A stretch of DNA of 64,000 nucleotides from Salinicola socius (GTDB taxonomy: Bacteria; Pseudomonadota; Gammaproteobacteria; Pseudomonadales; Halomonadaceae): assembly GCF_001937195.1 (NCBI RefSeq), contig NZ_MSDO01000001.1, positions 62,001 to 126,000 of the forward strand. Reading direction: 5' to 3'. Below the pieces are notes generated by a model. The model made no database searches, was not told where the DNA came from, and saw nothing but the letters and a program-made list of their open reading frames with translations. The position numbers and the translations under genes were made by a program. This document shows positions 3,965 through 37,394 of this stretch, in pieces; within the stretch, counting starts at the first letter, position 1, and the number at the start of each line of letters is the position of its first letter.

Positions 3965-6094
3965 CTAAAGGCCGACCTGACCGCCATCCGCTTTCCAGAT
4001 CGCCACCGTCGCGGCGCGGGGTCGAACCTTGCCGCTAGCCGCTTGCGTTGCGTCCTGGCTCAGCGCGTCACCATCCGCCGGCCAGTTGCCGGGGTGCTGG
4101 ATATTGATGAACAGCGCGGTTCGATCCGGCGTGGCGAAGATACCCGTCACCTCGCAGCCATTCGGGCCCACGGCGAAACGCTTGAGCTGGTCCTGATTGT
4201 CGGCATTGATGACCGACCCCGATCCACCGCCAGCACCCAGTGCTGCCGGGACGACTGCCAGCAACTGATCGTTGGTATACTCGGCCACCGCATTATCGCT
4301 GTTGTCGGTCTGGAACCACAGGATGCCCTGGCCGTCCCCACGGTCGTCATACCAGAGTCCATCGGGGCTGGCGAACTGATTGTCCCGGGTCAGGCCAGAG
4401 CGATTATCGGCGGCATCGACGTCGCTACCGAACACGAAGATCTCCCAGCTGAAGCGGTTGTCGTTCTCCTCACGCCATCGAATTATATGGCCATTCTCGT
4501 TGTTGGCCCGCGGGTTGGCAGCATTGGTCGGCGCCGTCGCGAAACCGACGCCAGCGGCGTCAACCGCGACGCCTCCGTTGGTGAAGGTGGCCTCGGTGCC
4601 GTCTTCGGTACGCTTGGAGTTGTTGGTCAGCGTGAAATAGACCTCGCCGGAAACGGGGTCGACACTCGACCACTCCGGTCGATCCATCGGCGTCGCGCCC
4701 ATCAGGTCGGCCGCGTCGCAGGTGTGGATGATGATCCCGGCGGCATCACCGGCCTCCAGGCCCAGCGCCGCGGCCAGCGTCTGGCCGGACGGCGTTCTGG
4801 CATCCGGCGTCAGTGCCAGCCATTCGCCTCGCCCCTCCTCGTCGAAACGCGCTGCGTAGAGCGTGCCTTCATCGAGATACTTGCTACCGATGGCCAGGCG
4901 ATCTGCCTCATTGCCCGGCTCGGGGGCATCGGCGGGGTCCCACCTGGCCGCGCTGACGAACTTGTAGATGTACTCGTTGCGCGAGTCGTGACCGGTATAG
5001 AACGTGAGCGGCTCACCAGCGCGAACCGGACCCGGCCAGCAACCCTCGTGACGAAACCGTCCAAGCGCCGTGCGCTTCATCGCCACCGCCTGGCTGTAGG
5101 GATCGATCTCGACCACGTAGCCGAAGGTCCGCGCCTCGTTGCGATAGTCTTCGCTGGCCTCGCCCTGGCCGGGCGTGACATCGAAACGCGCAAACTCGTC
5201 ATCATGCTCGTCGTCGCCCGCCGCCGTTTCCCAGCCGTAGCGTCCGCGATCGGTCGGCAACCCCAGGCGCGCGTCGTCGCTGAAACGTTCGCCGGTATTG
5301 ACGAACACTTCCGGCCAATTTTCCTCGCAGGTCAGGTAGGTACCCCAAGGCGTATAGCCGTTGGCGCAGTTGTTGTTGGTGCCCCGCGTTCGAGTCCCGT
5401 CGCTGGAGTAGCGCGTCTTGACATAGTCGCTACCCGCCACCGGCCCGGACAGCAGGACCGGCGTGGCGGTCGTGATGCGGCGATTGTAGGGAGAGTCGAC
5501 CACGTGCGCCCAGCCGCCATCGTCCTGGCGCTGGATCTCGACGATCGTGACGCCATGGGCGTTGATTTCGGTGCGTACCTCGTCGGCCGGCCGCACGCCA
5601 TCCGGTTGAGTCGGTCCGCCCTGAGGTGCCCATAGCGCATCCTGGTCGATGTATTCGTTGTTGAGGGCGAGCAGAAAGCGGCGCGAGCCGCTGTCTGCGT
5701 CAAGCGGGAAGGCGTGCATGCCGTCGTGATGCATGCCCACGCTGTTCGCCTGCTGCTCGGGAGTCATGGCGAGATTGTTCTGCCAGGCACTGGCCCTCGC
5801 ATTGAGCGGGGTTCCCCACGGAATCAGCACCTGCGCCCGGTACCCCTCGGGCACCACGACGGCATCGGTGTGCGATCCCCGGATCGCCTCGAAGGCCAGT
5901 GCCAACGGCGTCTTATCCTGGGCCCGGGCGCCAGCACTCCCGCCAAGTCCGAATCCGCCCATCATGGAGAGTGCGGCCAGCCCCAGGCCACCCTGCAGAA
6001 TCTGGCGACGCGATAGATGGCGTTCGACCACTTCGCCAAAAGGCATGTTGCGGCTGTTATTGTGACTACGATGATCTTCGACTTCCCGACTCAT
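3965..6094 (-). CDS. phoX: PhoX-family alkaline phosphatase (DUF839), Tat-exported
   Basis: This 709-residue protein belongs to the PhoX/DUF839 family of calcium- and iron-dependent periplasmic phosphatases that release phosphate from organic esters. The N-terminus has a twin-arginine signal: R29-R30 in HLSRRQILQGG, a hydrophobic core to about residue 50, and a probable cleavage site after ARA near residue 58. The family hallmark NNCANGYTPWGTYLTCEENW is present around residues 240-260. ATG 6094 is preceded by a GGGG-type ribosome site. The gene lies convergent to ppk1, which fits a phosphate-related role, but no Pho box was identified. Family membership is strong; the substrate is inferred. 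Confidence 0.9.
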   Translation of the reverse strand: MSREVEDHRSHNNSRNMPFGEVVERHLSRRQILQGGLGLAALSMMGGFGLGGSAGARAQDKTPLALAFEAIRGSHTDAVVVPEGYRAQVLIPWGTPLNARASAWQNNLAMTPEQQANSVGMHHDGMHAFPLDADSGSRRFLLALNNEYIDQDALWAPQGGPTQPDGVRPADEVRTEINAHGVTIVEIQRQDDGGWAHVVDSPYNRRITTATPVLLSGPVAGSDYVKTRYSSDGTRTRGTNNNCANGYTPWGTYLTCEENWPEVFVNTGERFSDDARLGLPTDRGRYGWETAAGDDEHDDEFARFDVTPGQGEASEDYRNEARTFGYVVEIDPYSQAVAMKRTALGRFRHEGCWPGPVRAGEPLTFYTGHDSRNEYIYKFVSAARWDPADAPEPGNEADRLAIGSKYLDEGTLYAARFDEEGRGEWLALTPDARTPSGQTLAAALGLEAGDAAGIIIHTCDAADLMGATPMDRPEWSSVDPVSGEVYFTLTNNSKRTEDGTEATFTNGGVAVDAAGVGFATAPTNAANPRANNENGHIIRWREENDNRFSWEIFVFGSDVDAADNRSGLTRDNQFASPDGLWYDDRGDGQGILWFQTDNSDNAVAEYTNDQLLAVVPAALGAGGGSGSVINADNQDQLKRFAVGPNGCEVTGIFATPDRTALFINIQHPGNWPADGDALSQDATQAASGKVRPRAATVAIWKADGGQVGL

Positions 6095-6198
6095 GTCATA
6101 TCCCCTGACTCATCACGGATTGCTCGTCTTGACGAGGCTAAGCCGGAGATATGACGAGATCATGTCGATCATACCCGAACGTCACGATGGCGGCCGGA

Positions 6199-7275
6199 TC
6201 AGACCTGGCGAAGTCGCTCCGCCACTCGCGTCAGCAGACTGCCGGTCGCGTCCCACCCCAGGCAGGCGTCGGTGATCGAGACGCCATAACGGAGCGCGAC
6301 GGGATTCAGCGCCTGCTTGCCTTCGAACAGATGGCTCTCGAGCATCACGCCGATCAGGCTGCGCTCGCCCGCTAGCCGCTGCTCCAGCACATCGTGGAGA
6401 ACCTCTGTCTGGCGCCGATGATCCTTGTGCGAGTTGGCATGGCTACAGTCGACCATGATCCTCGGCTCGAGCCCGGCCTGCGCCATTGCCCGGCGGCTGG
6501 CAGCCACGCTCCCGGCATCGTGGTTGGGCCCGCTGCGACCGCCGCGCAGCACCAGGTGCGTGGCGGAGTTTCCCGGCGTCTCGATCATCGCTGGCCCCCC
6601 TTGGGCAGTGACGCCGAAATGGCGATGCGAGTGGGCGGCCGACTGCATTGCCGCTATCGCGACATCGATGTTGCCCTGGGTGCCGTTCTTGAAACCTACC
6701 GCCGCCGCCAGACCGCTGGCCAGTTCACGATGGATCTGGGATTCGGTGGTACGCGCGCCGATCGCCACCCAGCTCAGCAGGTCGTCGAAGTAGGCGCTGG
6801 CCATCGGCTGCAGCAGCTCGGTGGCGATCGGGAGACCCATTTCGGCGATATCGCGCATCAGGTGTCTTGCCATGGCCAGACCTGCGGCCATGTCGTCGCT
6901 GCCATCCAGGTGGGGGTCGTAGGCCATGCCCTTCCAGCCGACGGTCGTGCGCGGTTTCTCGACGTAGACTCTCATCACCAGCAGCAACCGATCGCCGACT
7001 ACCGCATTGAGCGCCGCCAGACGCTCGGCGTACTCGAGGGCCGCGGCAGGATCATGTACCGAGCAGGGCCCGGTGACGACCAGCAGACGATCGTCCTCGC
7101 CGTCGAGAATGGCACGTATGGCCTGTTGGCTCGCGGCGATCTGGGTCTCCAGTGCCGTGCTCAACGGCACTGCCTGGCGCAGTTCGTGCGCCGTCGGCAA
7201 CGGCAGCGTTCTGATGGTAGACAGGGCAGCCCGTCTCGAAGGGGTCGGTTTCAGCTCGGCGGTAGCGGCGTTCAT
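6199..7275 (-). CDS. 3-deoxy-7-phosphoheptulonate (DAHP) synthase, class I
   Basis: It catalyses the first shikimate-pathway step, condensing phosphoenolpyruvate with erythrose 4-phosphate. The 358-residue protein matches the AroF/AroG/AroH type: GPCSVHD at 69-75, KPRTTVGWKG at 107-116, then KNGTQGN, LRGG and DCSHANS. Which amino acid inhibits this isozyme cannot be read from the sequence. The upstream leader peptide (7404-7529) and hairpin (7323-7355) indicate control by charged aromatic tRNA supply. The ATG at 7275 lies 47 bp past the attenuator hairpin. The gene is minus-strand, and the sigma-factor gene is divergent from its leader. Confidence 0.93.
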   Translation of the reverse strand: MNAATAELKPTPSRRAALSTIRTLPLPTAHELRQAVPLSTALETQIAASQQAIRAILDGEDDRLLVVTGPCSVHDPAAALEYAERLAALNAVVGDRLLLVMRVYVEKPRTTVGWKGMAYDPHLDGSDDMAAGLAMARHLMRDIAEMGLPIATELLQPMASAYFDDLLSWVAIGARTTESQIHRELASGLAAAVGFKNGTQGNIDVAIAAMQSAAHSHRHFGVTAQGGPAMIETPGNSATHLVLRGGRSGPNHDAGSVAASRRAMAQAGLEPRIMVDCSHANSHKDHRRQTEVLHDVLEQRLAGERSLIGVMLESHLFEGKQALNPVALRYGVSITDACLGWDATGSLLTRVAERLRQV

Positions 7276-7322
7276 AACGATCTCATTCCAGGTGAATTCA
7301 AGAATTGAGACCCGAAACGCGA

Positions 7323-7355
7323 GAACCCCCGGTTGGGGCTGCCATCCGGGGGTTC
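7323..7355 (-). terminator. Attenuator-like hairpin before the DAHP synthase gene
   Basis: A perfect 10-bp stem (gaacccccgg, 7346-7355 in transcript order, with ccgggggttc, 7323-7332) encloses a 13-base loop. It lies between the leader peptide and the DAHP synthase start. The downstream tract is only moderately T-rich (tctcgcgtttc), so it may terminate incompletely, as attenuators often do. Its loop can instead pair with upstream RNA (see 7336-7430). Confidence 0.7.
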
Positions 7356-7430
7356 TTGATGCGAGGAGGCAGCCCGGTTCCGGGCGTGCCTCGCGGGTTC
7401 AGGTCATATCGACCAACCGGCGGGCACGCC
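7336..7430 (-). promoter_or_regulatory. Alternative-pairing region of the aromatic attenuator
   Basis: Several mutually exclusive pairings are visible in the minus-strand transcript. (i) An 8-bp pairing joins 7423-7430, inside leader codons 34-36, with 7383-7390. (ii) A hairpin spans 7361-7394 (gcgagg/cctcgc with an inner gcccgg/ccgggc). (iii) An 8-bp pairing joins 7368-7375 with 7336-7343, inside the terminator loop. Such overlap is what ribosome-mediated attenuation needs. I could not decide by eye which fold is the antiterminator. Confidence 0.55.
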
Positions 7431-7529
7431 AGTCCTAAACCAGTAGCCATAACCAGAGAACGCCAACGCCATCACGCCGCCAGAAGCGCAGGCGGTGTCG
7501 ATGAAGCGTGTGTCGTGGCGTTCGGTCAT
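7404..7529 (-). CDS. Aromatic-rich leader peptide (41 aa) of the DAHP synthase transcript
   Basis: A short frame of ATG, 40 further codons and TGA lies between the promoter region and the attenuator hairpin. It encodes a peptide with the cluster YGYWF at residues 27-31 and a second Trp at residue 39; seven of 41 residues are aromatic. This matches a ribosome-mediated attenuation leader sensing Tyr/Trp/Phe supply. A weak AGAG-type ribosome site precedes the ATG at 7529. An internal ATG at codon 20 would give a 22-residue peptide with the same key codons. No function of the peptide itself is implied. Confidence 0.7.
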   Translation of the reverse strand: MTERHDTRFIDTACASGGVMALAFSGYGYWFRTGVPAGWSI

Positions 7530-7568
7530 GACAATCTCTCGCAGAGAGTCTTCGTAAGTCGTGGTTCT

Positions 7569-7596
7569 ATCCTAACGCCCCGATGAATTTTGACAA
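7569..7596 (-). promoter_or_regulatory. Candidate promoter for the leader / DAHP synthase transcript
   Basis: The minus strand carries TTGTCA (7591-7596) and TAGGAT (7569-7574) separated by 16 bases, about 40 bp upstream of the leader-peptide ATG. The spacing suits a housekeeping sigma factor and the hexamers match 5/6 and 4/6. A forward TTGACA overlaps at 7590-7595, but no good -10 follows it. Confidence 0.45.
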
Positions 7597-7699
7597 GTCT
7601 TTTGGCGTGAATGACAACCGATCGCCATCCACGCTTTACTTGTTGGGGCCCGTTGGCGAGACTGACGCACAAGAAAAAGAAAGCATTCTAAGGACTTCC

Positions 7700-8254
7700 A
7701 TGGCCTACCCGCCTCATGACGTGCTGATCGACAATCTCCACGCCAGCGCCCGTGGCGACGGTCTCGCATTCGAAAAGCTCTACCGCGCGACCAGTCCGCA
7801 TCTATATGCCCAGCTATTGCGTATCGTCAGACAAGAAGCCGCCGCACAGGACTGCCTGCAGCTGGTGTATCTGCGCGTGTGGCAGGTGGCCGGGCAGTAC
7901 GATGCCACCCGCGCCCGTCCGATGACCTGGCTGTCGACGCTCACGCGCAATATCGGTATCGACTGGCTGAGGCGTCAGCGCCCCCAGGAAGCCGACGGTA
8001 ATGCCATCATCGAGACCTTGCCCGGCGAGACCGATGTCGAGCGCGAGAGCGACCTCAATCAGCAGGCGGCGTCTCTACAGCAGTGCCTGACCGAATTGAC
8101 GACGCAGCAGCGCCAGGCGCTAGAACTCGCGTTTTTCGAAGGGCTGACCCACCACGACCTGGCATCACATCTGACCACGCCGCTGGGAACCGTCAAGAGC
8201 TGGGTCCGGAGAGGCCTCGAGAGGTTGAAGGCATGCATGACACGTTTAGCTTGA
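7700..8254 (+). CDS. ECF-type RNA polymerase sigma factor
   Basis: The 185-residue protein has a sigma-70 region 2 at about 25-95 (FEKLYRATSPHLYAQLLRIV, then the core-binding stretch around DCLQLVYLRVWQVAGQYD). Region 4 is a helix-turn-helix at about 150-182 (HDLASHLTTPLGTVKSWVRRGLERLK). ATG 7700 was chosen because AAGGA stands six bases before it; an in-frame ATG at 7583 would add 39 residues unrelated to the family. Its last 22 bases overlap the anti-sigma gene, the usual arrangement for an ECF sigma and its inhibitor. The regulon is unknown. Confidence 0.9.
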   Translation: MAYPPHDVLIDNLHASARGDGLAFEKLYRATSPHLYAQLLRIVRQEAAAQDCLQLVYLRVWQVAGQYDATRARPMTWLSTLTRNIGIDWLRRQRPQEADGNAIIETLPGETDVERESDLNQQAASLQQCLTELTTQQRQALELAFFEGLTHHDLASHLTTPLGTVKSWVRRGLERLKACMTRLA

Positions 8255-8940
8255 GCGATCCTGAAGCGCGAGACCTGGCGGCCGGCGAGTACGTCCTCGG
8301 CACGCTGGATCGCGACCAGTGCGCAGAATTCGAAGCGCTGCTGGCGGTCAGCTCGGATCTGCAACGCAGCGTCGATGCGTGGCGGGAACACCTGCAACTG
8401 CTCAACCAGCAGTTGGAAGCGGTCTCCCCTCCCAGCCGGTTGTGGGCGGATATCGCCTCCCGCCTGGGGCTGCGAACCGGTCTGATCCATCGACTCGGTT
8501 TCTGGCGTGCTTTCAGTGGTTTCGCCACCGCTGCGGCGCTGGCGCTGGCGACGATCGCGCTGGCACCACGCGAGCCGCCGATGATGCCGGGGGAATATGT
8601 CTTCGTGATCAATCAGCCCAGCGGTCAGCCGGGCTGGATCCTCAATGCCACGCTGGATGGCAAGATGATGGTTCAGGCCGTCGCGCCGGGCCCGATGCCG
8701 TCAGGAAAAGGTGGCGAACTGTGGATGATGGAGAACGGCACGCCGATCTCCCTGGGGATGCTGCCCATTCACGGGCAGGCCACCATGCAGCTGCCGGCCA
8801 AGATGCTGGGGCTGATGAAGACGGCAGATTTCGCCGTCAGCATGGAACCCAGCGCCGGTGCACCGGGAGGCAAACCGTCCGGGCCGGTGATCGACGAAGG
8901 CAAGCTGGTGCAGATCCGCAACAGTACCGTCTCGTTATGA
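8233..8940 (+). CDS. RskA-like transmembrane anti-sigma factor
   Basis: The 235-residue protein has a cytosolic N-terminal region with the motif AAGEYVLGTLD typical of RskA-type anti-sigma factors. One membrane segment follows at about 92-112, then a periplasmic RskA C-terminal domain (GEYVFVINQP, GGELWMME, FAVSMEP). It has no HxxxCxxC zinc motif. It presumably holds the overlapping sigma factor at the membrane until a signal triggers release. ATG 8233 is 22 bases inside the sigma gene, with GAGAGG at 8219-8224 as ribosome site. The stop codon lies in a short tandem duplication (8925-8957). Confidence 0.85.
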   Translation: MHDTFSLSDPEARDLAAGEYVLGTLDRDQCAEFEALLAVSSDLQRSVDAWREHLQLLNQQLEAVSPPSRLWADIASRLGLRTGLIHRLGFWRAFSGFATAAALALATIALAPREPPMMPGEYVFVINQPSGQPGWILNATLDGKMMVQAVAPGPMPSGKGGELWMMENGTPISLGMLPIHGQATMQLPAKMLGLMKTADFAVSMEPSAGAPGGKPSGPVIDEGKLVQIRNSTVSL

Positions 8941-8957
8941 TACCCGTCTCGTTATGA
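8925..8957 (+). repeat. 16/17-bp tandem duplication at the anti-sigma gene stop
   Basis: The stretch taccgtctcgttatga (8925-8940), which ends in the stop codon, is repeated at 8941-8957 with one extra C. The second copy lies outside the reading frame. It looks like a recent slippage duplication. Confidence 0.7.
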
Positions 8958-9002
8958 CACCGAGCTCGCCATGACACGCCGTGGCGGGCTCGTGGGTGGC
9001 CG

Positions 9003-9695
9003 TCAGGCGAGGTGCTGGCCACCGTCGACCGGTACGACGGTGCCGGTCACAAAATCGTTGTCCAGTAGATAGCGCAAGGTCTGATACACCACGCCGGGCC
9101 CGGGCACACGTCGCCCGGGTTCCCGGCTGCCATCATCGTCATCGTTGAGCATCACCAGACCCGGGGCGATGGCGTTGACCTGAATCCGCGGCGCGAACTG
9201 CGCCGCAAACGATCGGGTCAGACTCTCCAGCCCGGCCTTGGTCGCGGCATAGGCTGCCTGGCCGGCAGCGCCACGCTGCACCACGCTGTCGGTGATATGC
9301 ACGATGTCACACTGCGGTTCCTGACACGCCTCCAGCAGCGCCTTCGCATGCAGATTGATCAGATAGGGCGCCTGCATGTGGACGCGAAACAGGCGCTCGA
9401 AGGTTGCCCCTGCCGCCTCCGGCTCGGGATCCGATAGCCACTCGCCGGCGTTGTGAATGATGGCGCGTAGACTCGAGGTGCTATCGCGTAGCCGAGCGAT
9501 GAAGTCGAGAATCCCGGCTTCACTGGCAAAATCCGCGGCCAGGGTCACGGCACCGCGCGCCCGCAGCGCCGACAGCGCCTCGCGCTCGCGGCGATAGGTG
9601 AGGATGACCGGATGGCCGTCGTCGAGCAGCCGTTCGGCGCAGTGTCGACCCAGGCGCTGAGCACCACCGGTGATCAGAATCGGGGATTGGCTCAC
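9003..9695 (-). CDS. folM: FolM-like dihydromonapterin/dihydrofolate reductase (SDR family)
   Basis: This 230-residue short-chain dehydrogenase has the cofactor motif TGGAQRLG at 9-16, HNAG at 81-84 and the catalytic pair Y149/K153 in YAATK. The TGGxxRLG variant and the SVVQRG segment resemble FolM, which reduces dihydromonapterin and dihydrofolate with NADPH. The start is GTG at 9695, preceded by GAGAAG. Its first bases overlap the upstream TGA as GTGA, a translational-coupling arrangement. A longer open frame exists only because the frame runs into the upstream gene. SDR membership is certain; the FolM subfamily is likely. Confidence 0.8.
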   Translation of the reverse strand: MSQSPILITGGAQRLGRHCAERLLDDGHPVILTYRREREALSALRARGAVTLAADFASEAGILDFIARLRDSTSSLRAIIHNAGEWLSDPEPEAAGATFERLFRVHMQAPYLINLHAKALLEACQEPQCDIVHITDSVVQRGAAGQAAYAATKAGLESLTRSFAAQFAPRIQVNAIAPGLVMLNDDDDGSREPGRRVPGPGVVYQTLRYLLDNDFVTGTVVPVDGGQHLA

Positions 9696-10522
9696 GACTT
9701 CTTCTCCGATGACCACGCGCTCTCGCCCGGGGTCAGTGGCGCCCGTGCCGGGTCGCCTTCCGGCAGCGGCAGAAAGGGAATGCGCGGCGCGTAGCTGAAG
9801 ACGTCCGAATGGACCTGCTGTTCGACCAGCCCCATCGGTGCCAATGTGTCCACGCAGGCATAGACCATGCCCGGAGAGCCGGCGAGATAGATCTCGATCC
9901 CCGTCAGCGACTCGAGCTGCCGCCCCAGCACGTCGGCCAGTACCTGGTCGATACGCCCGCTGTGCCAGTGGATGTCCGACAGCGCCTCGAGCTCGGTCTC
10001 GGGTGACTCGACCACGGCGTGGAATTGCACGTTCGCGTAGGTTCGGGCCCACTCCCGCGCCAGGGTCTCGGCATAGAGATCGCGACGCTCGCGCACCGCC
10101 CACCAGATCGAAAGGTCTCTCTCGGGGTTCTCGGCCAAAGCCGCTTCGACGATCGCCTTGAGCTGGGCAAAGCCGGTGCCGGCGGCGATCAACAGCAGCG
10201 GCTCGGAGCGCTTCGGTGGCAGAACGCACTCACCGCTGGGGAGACGAACCGACAGTCGGTTGCGATGGGTCAACAGCTGTCGCAGACGTGCCGAGTGAGT
10301 GCGTTCCGGCCAATGCTGGATATGCAGTTCCAGCCGACCGTCGCCGGCCTCGGCGCAGGCGATAGAGAAAGGCACCCAGGTCTCCTCGTGCAACTCCAGT
10401 TCGAGATACTGGCCGGGTGCATGGGCAATCGCCTCGGCGCGCCCTTCTAGCACGACCCGAAATACGTCGGGCGTCAGATCCTCGACGGTTTCCACCTGGC
10501 AGGTCAACGTTCTGACCGTCAT
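9692..10522 (-). CDS. Fre/UbiB-like NAD(P)H flavin reductase (FNR superfamily)
   Basis: The 276-residue oxidoreductase has an N-terminal flavin-binding barrel (GQYLELEL, PFSIACAE) and an NAD(P)-binding domain (LLLIAAGTGFAQLKAIV, then YLAGSPGMVYACV). It aligns from MTVRTLTCQVETVEDL with E. coli Fre. It sits directly downstream of ubiD, as Fre does in many gammaproteobacteria, so supplying reduced FMN for prenyl-FMN is a reasonable guess. I prefer ATG 10522 because GAGGTGA precedes it closely and it fits the family length. An ATG at 10546 that overlaps the ubiD stop as ATGA would add eight residues. Confidence 0.82.
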   Translation of the reverse strand: MTVRTLTCQVETVEDLTPDVFRVVLEGRAEAIAHAPGQYLELELHEETWVPFSIACAEAGDGRLELHIQHWPERTHSARLRQLLTHRNRLSVRLPSGECVLPPKRSEPLLLIAAGTGFAQLKAIVEAALAENPERDLSIWWAVRERRDLYAETLAREWARTYANVQFHAVVESPETELEALSDIHWHSGRIDQVLADVLGRQLESLTGIEIYLAGSPGMVYACVDTLAPMGLVEQQVHSDVFSYAPRIPFLPLPEGDPARAPLTPGESAWSSEKKS

Positions 10523-10542
10523 GTTCACCTCATTGCTTGCCG

Positions 10543-12060
10543 TCATGCCGCCCCATCATTCGAGGATTTCCCGGTTCGCGCCGATGGTGGCGCGATATCG
10601 ATACCGTAGCTTTCCCAGCGTTCGTCGACGCGCGATCGGGTCGCTGAATCCATCACGATGGGCTCGCCCCACTCGCGCGTGGTTTCACCGGGCCACTTGT
10701 TGGTGGCATCGAGACCCATCTTCGATCCCAGTCCCGCCGTCGGAGAGGCAAAATCGAGATAGTCGATCGGCGTGTTTTCCACCATCACCGTATCCCGTGC
10801 CGGATCCATCCGTGTGGTGATCGCCCAGATCACGTCTTCCCAATTGCGCGCGTCAACATCGTCATCCAGCACGATCACGAACTTGGTGTACATGAACTGA
10901 CGCAGGAAACTCCACACGCCCATCATCACGCGCTTGGCATGGCCGGGATACTGCTTCTTCATGGTGACGATCGCCATCCGGTAGGAGCAGCCTTCCGGTG
11001 GCAGATAGAAATCGACGATCTCGGGAAACTGCTTGCACAGGATAGGCACGAACACTTCATTGAGCGCCAGGCCCAGCACCGCCGGCTCGTCCGGCGGGCG
11101 GCCGGTGTAGGTAGAGTGGTAGATCGGATCACGACGATGGGTGATTCGCTCGACGGTGAATACGGGAAAACTTTCGACTTCGTTATAGTAACCGGTATGG
11201 TCGCCATAGGGCCCTTCGGGCGCCATGTCATCCGGATGAATGTAGCCTTCCAGCACGATCTCGCTCGACGCTGGAACCTCCAGATCGGCATGGCCGCACT
11301 TGACCAGCTCGGTCCGCGAGCCGCGCAGCAGCCCCGCGAAGGCATACTCGGAAAGCGTGTCCGGCACCGGCGTCACTGCGCCCAGGATGGTCGCCGGATC
11401 GGCGCCCAGCGCTACCGCGACCGGGAAGGGCTCGCCGGGATGAGCCTGCTGCCACTCGCGGAAGTCCAGCGCCCCGCCCCGATGACTCAGCCAGCGCATG
11501 ATCAGACGATTCCTGCCGAGCTTCTGCTGGCGATAGATGCCCAGATTCTGGCGCGACTTGTGCGGGCCCTTGGTCACCACCAGCGCCCAGGTCACCAGCG
11601 GCGCGACGTCGCCCGGCCAGCAGTGCTGAATCGGCAGGCGGTCGAGATCGACATCCTCGCCTTCGAGCACGACCTGCTGACACGGTGCCGAACGCAGCGT
11701 TTTCGGCCCCATGCTCATGACCTGCTTGAAGATCGGCAGCTTCTCCCAGGCATCCTTGAGCCCCTTGGGCGGGTCCGGCTCCTTCAGAAAAGCCAGCAGC
11801 TTGCCGACCTCGCGCAGTGCCTCGACACTCTCCTGGCCCATACCGAACGCCACCCGCTCAGGCGTCCCGAACAGGTTTCCCAGGACCGGCATGTCGCTAC
11901 CCTTGACGTTCTCGAACAGCAGCGCGGGTCCGCCGGCACGCAGCGTGCGGTCACAGATCTCGGTGATCTCGAGGTATGGATCCACCTCCACCGTGACGCG
12001 CTTGAGCTCGCCGCGAGCTTCCAGCGCCGCGATGAAGTCCCGTAAATCATGATATTTCAT
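10543..12060 (-). CDS. ubiD: UbiD, 4-hydroxy-3-polyprenylbenzoate decarboxylase
   Basis: UbiD uses prenylated FMN and manganese to decarboxylate the polyprenylbenzoate intermediate of ubiquinone synthesis. The 505-residue length matches E. coli UbiD (497). Recognisable family segments are [14 protein letters not shown] at the start, the cofactor-site region with RQNLGIYR and NRLIMRW, and the conserved [12 protein letters not shown] stretch. It is followed by the Fre-like gene with a possible 4-base overlap. It is separated from rho by the rho terminator hairpin, so ubiD probably has its own promoter. Confidence 0.96.
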
Positions 12061-37151: not shown

Positions 37152-37394
37152 GATGACTCCTGGAGAATCGGGTTAGGCTTCCACACACCCCATGGATCCG
37201 ACCGTACGGCTAGGCCGTCACGGCACCCGGGACCATGTGCCGGTGCATGTGTGTTTTTTGATGACGCGGCAATCACGCGGAGAACCATCGTCGCTACTGA
37301 CTCGGCTGCGCTGGCGCCTCGACATGAATGCCGACGGCAGGCCAGCTCGGCCACCACTTCGCAGAACGCAGGGATGGGCAATTGCAGTCGAGCG
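37152..37394 (-). promoter_or_regulatory. rpsB leader region
   Basis: Roughly 240 bases lie between the likely transcription start and the rpsB ATG, with no coding frame of note. Inverted repeats are visible, for example ccgt...acgg around 37199-37224. Leaders of this kind bind S2 in other gammaproteobacteria for feedback control. That this one does so is an inference. Confidence 0.4.

Follow-up and report, generated by a model that had tools for sequence, protein, structure and literature searches.

An aromatic leader peptide and a candidate transcription attenuator upstream of a DAHP synthase gene in Salinicola and its relatives

Organization of the DAHP synthase locus

The window analysed here is a stretch of 64,000 nucleotides from the genome of Salinicola socius (contig NZ_MSDO01000001.1, positions 62,001 to 126,000), and all the features of the element described below lie on its minus strand. 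The gene at 6199..7275 encodes a DAHP synthase of the AroFGH type (TIGR00034, aroFGH, 445.9 bits against a cut-off of 173.2), so that the leader does precede a gene for entry into the shikimate pathway, as the first-pass annotation had claimed, and this is the gene that we propose to be regulated. The solved chains that match the protein include Tyr- and Phe-regulated DAHP synthases. The second DAHP synthase of the same genome (51% identical) has no such leader by eye in the 600 nt upstream.

By sequence scan, a promoter-like site of the sigma-70 type, TTGTCA-16-TAGGAT, is located at 7569..7596, and TTGYCA-16-TANGAT occurs at the equivalent position in 16 of the 18 Salinicola genomes. The leader peptide frame, taken from the list of open reading frames, extends over 7404..7529 and runs from ATG to TGA through 41 codons (MTERHDTRFIDTACASGGVMALAFSGYGYWFRTGVPAGWSI). 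Read from the sequence, it is a short leader frame with a start codon and a putative ribosome-binding site: the purine-rich GAGAGA lies just 5' of the ATG, and GGAG-type sites are seen by eye in many relatives. The 41-codon frame is exactly as first described, with Y27, G28, Y29, W30, F31, and W39 all in place, and the aromatic block YGYWF occupies 7451-7437.

Within and behind this frame lie short segments that are able to pair with one another. Segment A (GGUUUAGG, codons 30-32, 7434..7441) can pair with segment B' (CCUGAACC, 7396..7403), which is directly 3' of the stop codon; both were placed from the sequence and an alignment to the covariance model of the Rfam family P15, below its cut-off. 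Segment L (GGCGUGCC, codons 34-36, 7423..7430), delimited by swap test, covariation, and folding, is the partner of segment C in what we call the read-through form. Segment C itself (GAGGCACGCCCG, 7381..7392) can take L or D as its partner, and segment D (CCGGGCUGCCUC, 7366..7377) can take C or E, as judged by swap test and covariation. Segment E (GGCAGCCC, 7343-7336) belongs to the 5' side and loop of a terminator-like hairpin at 7322..7356.

This hairpin is perfect, as had been claimed, and its helix measures 11 bp rather than the 10 bp first given: GC-rich arms AGAACCCCCGG (7356-7346) and CCGGGGGUUCU (7332-7322) enclose a loop of 13 nt. Because the tail 3' of it (CGCGUUUCGGGU) has no canonical U-tract, the structure in the window differs from a canonical intrinsic terminator (a GC-rich hairpin with a U-tract), and a consensus terminator scan of 6000-8600 found none. 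The hairpin of the other Salinicola is likewise without a canonical U-tract. It is kept in the 18 Salinicola genomes, a strong hairpin follows the leader stop at a distance of 41-62 nt in all 80 sequences examined, those of 79 loci and of the window, and U-rich tails, such as UUGUUUUUU, follow it in Pseudomonas relatives. Termination in Salinicola may be weaker or factor-assisted. In the window, the leader stop is 128 nt, and the hairpin 46 nt, from the start of the DAHP synthase gene.

At the gathering score, an Rfam scan of the whole window gave no riboswitch or T-box family, and its sole match was the t44 RNA (RF00127, 67 bits, 37172-37271, minus strand). Divergent genes for an ECF sigma factor and an anti-sigma factor occupy 7583-8940 on the plus strand; since the longest frame of the sigma factor runs into the leader promoter, the ATG at 7700 is probably where this protein really begins. 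On the 3' side of the DAHP synthase gene, 3965-6094 (minus) encodes a large protein with a twin-arginine-like start and without an NCBIfam match, which may be similar to PhoX-type phosphatases.

Conservation of the element and its relation to Rfam P15

A search of genome contigs gave 587 relatives of the DAHP synthase, and the best 80 of these form our locus set, the window (L001) and the paralogue (L002) being excluded. These loci come from Salinicola, other Halomonadaceae, Pseudomonadaceae, two unclassified gammaproteobacterial bins, and one Gilliamella. That the frame and its aromatic codons might prove unconserved had been set beforehand as the refuting outcome; the leader is kept in 18 of 18 Salinicola genomes and, with ..YWF.. 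or the variant ..YFM.., in 79 of the 80 loci (the best 80 of 587), the exception being the Gilliamella locus L081, which is counted in this figure and omitted from the alignments. Of these best 80 of 587, 79 have an in-frame stretch with at least four aromatic residues in six among the 600 nt that precede the match; the same test gave 3 of 79 for sequence farther upstream, 7 of 77 for sequence downstream, 4 of 80 for the reverse strand, and 9 of 80 for shuffled sequence. The leaders vary in detail (for example, FFWWFGYGFYFSQ in one family) and keep the aromatic block; the word YWF is retained, with few variants, in at least 77 of the 79 leaders from the best 80 of 587 relatives, and each of the 80 sequences examined (the window and 79 loci) has F, W, and Y at its leader end. 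The residues 5' of the block vary widely among genera, and also inside Salinicola.

At the leader end, 340 of the 388 Phe and Tyr codons are TTT or TAT; the corresponding figure for the DAHP synthase genes of these loci is 107 of 765. These rarer codons would sharpen the sensitivity of the ribosome to tRNA supply, and it is also possible that the excess arises from the weak pairing of U-ending codons. For codons 2-26, a codon-position test on eight Salinicola sequences gave 0.35 synonymous against 0.24 expected, a weak sign of translation that suggests little amino-acid constraint there.

To follow the spread of the element, a custom covariance model was made from 41 non-redundant sequences, with the structure proposed by RNAalifold; it includes the leader-end sequence and is therefore biased toward the aromatic word. 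It has one match in the S. socius genome and finds the element in 18 of 18 Salinicola genomes, in all of them with the leader frame and before the DAHP synthase gene. At the level of the order (E up to 0.001), 29 of 194 genomes matched, 27 of the 29 before a DAHP synthase gene; 26 of these 27 have an aromatic block within 700 nt, and the other one, L131, has none within that distance. A sample of the class (E up to 0.01) gave matches in 14 of 369 genomes, and in 6 of the 14 a DAHP synthase gene follows. For one further family of the class, 14 of 17 genomes matched, with 14 of 15 matches before the gene. Across the genus, order, class, and further-family searches, every match with E up to 3.3e-4 stands before a DAHP synthase gene. 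The weak matches with no DAHP synthase in the stretch examined were set aside as chance; the class contributed eight of these (E 0.002-0.009), the order two, and the further family one. These observations establish the aromatic leader and hairpin element as real and conserved.

The element has a counterpart in Rfam, P15 (RF00627), to which the window element scores 26 bits (E 0.0016), below the gathering score of 70. When 20 loci of relatives were searched, RF00627 exceeded its cut-off in nine (L012:1050-1167 and eight others), at 71.6-125.6 bits and covering the leader end through to the terminator. These nine are all of the searched loci outside the Halomonadaceae; the 11 loci from that family stay below the cut-off of 70. 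The Chromohalobacter locus L007 scores 49.8 bits. Among 46 genomes of the class, two matched, none over the cut-off: one match lies over a DAHP synthase gene (69.8 bits), and the other is weak and has no such gene. RF00627 had no match in 14 control genomes. P15 resembles the window element in its place before the DAHP synthase gene and in the order of its helices. The differences are that its Rfam entry is typed as a small RNA gene and that the P15 model includes no peptide and no D:E pairing. Although the score is below the cut-off, the shared position, the order of the parts, and the custom-model match argue that the window element is a homologue, and not a formal member, of P15. P15 would then be the terminated product of this attenuator, and the re-typing of RF00627 as a cis-regulatory leader is probably warranted.

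Competing helices and folding around a stalled ribosome

The 8-bp alternative pairings described at the outset are exact in the sequence. In the window, L:C joins GGCGUGCC at 7430-7423 (codons 34-36) with GGCACGCC at 7390-7383, and D:E joins GGGCUGCC at 7375-7368 with GGCAGCCC at 7343-7336, in the terminator arm and loop. The compatible sets are L:C with D:E (the read-through form) and C:D with the terminator (the termination form), and the two sets are mutually exclusive. An antiterminator and a terminator that exclude each other are thus present, and the computed switch between them is clear in the window, which is one of 10 sequences among 41 to show it clearly. The folding of the RNA 7457-7313 is 4.3 sd better than that of dinucleotide shuffles, none of 200 equalling it.

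Whether the partners have changed together was examined in an alignment of 41 of the 78 distinct sequences, with mutual identity below 86%; in one row (L041), segment C is almost entirely gap, which spoils that row. When partners were swapped among the 41 sequences, the native pairings were more stable than the swapped ones for L:C (-13.6 vs -11.3 kcal/mol), D:E (-16.1 vs -14.4), C:D (-14.2 vs -13.1), and the terminator helix T5:T3 (-18.8 vs -16.7), and in each case 0 of 2000 permutations were as low. The native partner equalled or surpassed the median swap in 32 of 41 sequences for L:C, 35 for C:D, 36 for D:E, and 37 for the terminator. The controls L:D and C:E gave no signal (1794 and 1985 of 2000 permutations as low). 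It should be mentioned that L:E, which the model does not use, also gave a signal (1 of 2000), so the swap test is incompletely specific and shared descent alone is able to yield a signal. For the 18 Halomonadaceae-type rows alone, 0 of 2000 permutations were as low for L:C, 0 for D:E, and 12 for C:D; for the 22 other rows, mostly Pseudomonas, the test is weak (13, 75, and 342 of 2000, respectively).

The covariation score of both conformers exceeds that of all 500 shuffles, with two-sided changes in 29 and 31 cells. In the read-through form, 83.3% of cells are paired; shuffles give 79.1%, and sliding by 1-3 columns gives 29-49%. The termination form is paired in 89.8% of cells, against 84.6% and 35-58%, respectively, although both conformers were read from the window and are thereby favoured over their slid versions. 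The terminator helix is paired in 99.7% of cells. Compensation can be followed in L:C, where GGCGUGCC with GGCACGCC corresponds to GGUGUGCC with GGCACACC, and in D:E, where GGGUUGCC with GGCAACCC corresponds to GGGCUGCC with GGCAGCCC. In the read-through form, pairs that have changed on both sides are no more numerous than in shuffles (293 of 500), and two inner D:E pairs are broken in 17 and 25 of the 41 sequences. The RNAalifold consensus pairs L with D, together with the terminator, and has neither L:C nor C:D, its covariation term being only -0.65 kcal/mol; the L:D pairing that it prefers was tested and is without covariation (1794 of 2000). By swap test and covariation, compensating changes preserve the alternative pairings, and the signal is clearest in the Halomonadaceae.

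The effect of a ribosome was modelled by masking the RNA as far as 13 nt beyond the first base of the A-site codon, in a transcript that ends before the 3' arm of the terminator. In the window, the expected number of D:E pairs is 10.9 with the ribosome stalled at Trp30 and 0.9 with it at the stop codon, whereas C:D goes from 0.0 to 9.8 pairs. D:E is higher in the stalled state than at the stop in 38 of the 41 sequences (means of 9.1 and 6.9 pairs), and in 37 C:D gains pairs at the stop, though mostly few (means of 0.4 stalled and 2.4 at the stop). A drop of D:E below half is seen in 10 of 41 (the window, L006-L008, L018, L031, L049, L057, L078, and L079), and in L064 and L074 the change is reversed. 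The folding with and without a stalled ribosome that had been suggested as a check therefore gives a clean switch in the window, but in only 10 of the 41 sequences. A ribosome that waits at the stop covers segment C as well in many of the sequences, and in those the model requires the departure of the ribosome or the earlier formation of C:D. The ribosome-free fold of the window is L:C with D:E, the read-through form, and an untranslated leader would therefore not terminate in this model; the trp attenuator behaves otherwise when its leader is untranslated. In the modelled RNA, an A:B' pairing (GGUUUAGG with CCUGAACC) may alter the ribosome-free outcome during transcription.

Attenuation, rival explanations, and known systems

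The best explanation of these observations is a ribosome-mediated transcription attenuator that responds to charged aromatic tRNAs, to which we give a probability of about 0.84; the interpretation as an attenuator made in the first-pass annotation is thus supported. The analysis shows the frame and its conservation, the competing helices with their covariation, the adjoining DAHP synthase gene, and the computed switch in the window itself; we infer that ribosomes stall, that transcription terminates in vivo, which way regulation runs, and that all three amino acids are sensed. Transcription would start a few bases past the promoter-like site, the leader peptide would be translated as the RNA is made, and the position of the ribosome would select the RNA fold. 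When charged tRNA-Tyr, -Trp, or -Phe is scarce, the ribosome would stall within codons 27-31 and leave the leader end free from codon 34, so that L:C would form; D would then be free to capture the 5' side and loop of the terminator (D:E), and the RNA polymerase would continue into the DAHP synthase gene. When the aromatic amino acids are plentiful, the ribosome would run on to the stop codon, within the L:C hairpin, and open L:C; C:D and the terminator hairpin would then form, and transcription would end before the gene.

Among the other explanations, the idea that the aromatic frame is a chance open frame starts from the fact that short frames are common (93 of at least 25 amino acids overlap 4500-11000), and is refuted by conservation, since the aromatic stretch is found in 79 of 80 loci (the best 80 of 587) against 3-9 of about 80 in control regions; we give it practically no weight. 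The element could also be a free-standing, trans-acting small RNA whose 3' end is the hairpin, which is how P15 is filed: RF00627 is typed as a gene and named a Pseudomonas sRNA, and a passage of PMC2375449 includes P15 among the sRNAs detected by Livny et al. However, the P15 model starts inside a translatable frame and spans its stop codon, the aromatic codons are conserved, the custom-model matches with E up to 3.3e-4 all stand before a DAHP synthase gene, and a terminating attenuator would itself yield a short RNA, all of which makes a free-standing small RNA very improbable.

Nearly as improbable is a nascent peptide that, like TnaC, arrests the ribosome on a free aromatic amino acid rather than on uncharged tRNA. 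The constancy of YWF (at least 77 of 79 leaders from the best 80 of 587 relatives, with few variants) would suit it, but the conserved leader end also encodes segment L, and the residues before the aromatic block differ widely among genera and within Salinicola. Arrest peptides generally retain tunnel contacts. A somewhat more serious rival, which we still consider unlikely, holds that Rho or translation coupling is the main route and that the hairpin is inefficient as a terminator in Salinicola. The absence of a U-tract is in its favour, whereas the hairpin is kept in 18 Salinicola genomes, its arm is paired in 99.7% of cells across 41 sequences, and U-rich tails follow it in Pseudomonas.

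Beside the attenuator proposed above, most of the relatives have a second leader. Between the terminator and the gene, 74 of the 80 loci (the best 80 of 587) contain another frame with the motif WRFS or WRFT (L007, L012, L048, L052, and 70 others), with the peptide ..YYRYDWRFS.. and a nearly invariant 12-base word, TGGCGATTTAGC. The WRFS/T codons are TGGCGATTTAGC in 54 loci, TGGCGATTTACC in 17, TGGCGATTTAGT in two, and TGGCGCTTTAGC in one. In many loci, a purine-rich site precedes the ATG of this frame, and no hairpin with a U-tract was seen behind it by eye. In four Halomonadaceae loci (L023, L051, L053, and L054), its stop overlaps the apparent DAHP synthase start, which suggests translational coupling. 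Behind the WRFS word lie the segments CGGUCGG, GCCACCUCCGACCG, and GGUGGC (a, b, and c; L007:1355-1417 and similar places in 25 other loci), able to pair as a:b or b:c within the frame; none were seen by eye in the stutzeri-like loci. In a swap test on 26 of the 74 sequences, which were picked by eye for having the segments, the signals were modest (a:b 8 and b:c 48 of 2000 permutations as low), against 1222 of 2000 for the control a:c.

The motif of the second leader was not found in the window or in the 18 Salinicola genomes, apart from one unrelated match on the opposite strand in L090. In a tree of 81 DAHP synthases, one change explains its absence in six Salinicola rows, the window included, with modest support (65/95 for the branch; one change in 60% of bootstrap trees), and because the second leader is present in other Halomonadaceae and in Pseudomonas, loss in Salinicola is the simpler reading. 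We give even odds to the proposal that Pseudomonas and most of the Halomonadaceae examined use tandem leaders, the first for termination and the second as a later checkpoint (translation coupling or Rho), so that entry into the pathway is gated twice by the same amino acids, and that Salinicola lost stage two and is a natural single-stage version.

The proposed attenuator suggests that one leader could tune the first enzyme of the shikimate pathway to three end products, and it gives a concrete identity to P15, a catalogued Pseudomonas "small RNA". With tandem leaders present in relatives and absent in Salinicola, the question of why a single gene should need two of them can be tested directly. 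Because some Pseudomonas and Halomonas serve as production hosts, a removable brake on aromatic synthesis is potentially useful in practice.

The mechanism of attenuation is itself of a known kind. As far as our searches show, the novelty lies in how widely the element occurs, in one block for three aromatic amino acids at the entry to the pathway, in what P15 is, and in the tandem leaders of relatives: we found no published account of the gammaproteobacterial leader in open-licence PMC texts, although Vitreschak et al. (2004) and Panina et al. (2001) may predict it. The supplementary tables of PMC8297930, which concern more than 200 P. aeruginosa genes with early 3' ends, may include this leader.

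In comparison with known systems, the layout of the element is of a familiar type. The trp and pheA attenuators of E. coli and the his attenuator of Salmonella and E. coli each have a leader peptide, competing helices, and a terminator, and each responds to one amino acid. The chain A:B', L:C, C:D, D:E, and terminator resembles the layout of the his attenuator. Unlike these three systems, the element described here combines codons for Tyr, Trp, and Phe in a single block at the entry to the pathway, and a second leader follows in most of the relatives examined. A further parallel is the aroR leader of aroF in Corynebacterium glutamicum, reportedly described by Neshat et al. in 2014. According to passages of PMC11802643 and PMC4046766, this leader of a DAHP synthase gene contains Phe-Tyr-Phe and acts by ribosome-mediated attenuation; in the former, a review, limitation of Phe is effective and Tyr is without effect. 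As described in those passages, the aroR leader, like ours, encodes a peptide that contains aromatic codons and precedes a DAHP synthase gene; it differs in its Phe-Tyr-Phe codons and in its actinobacterial host.
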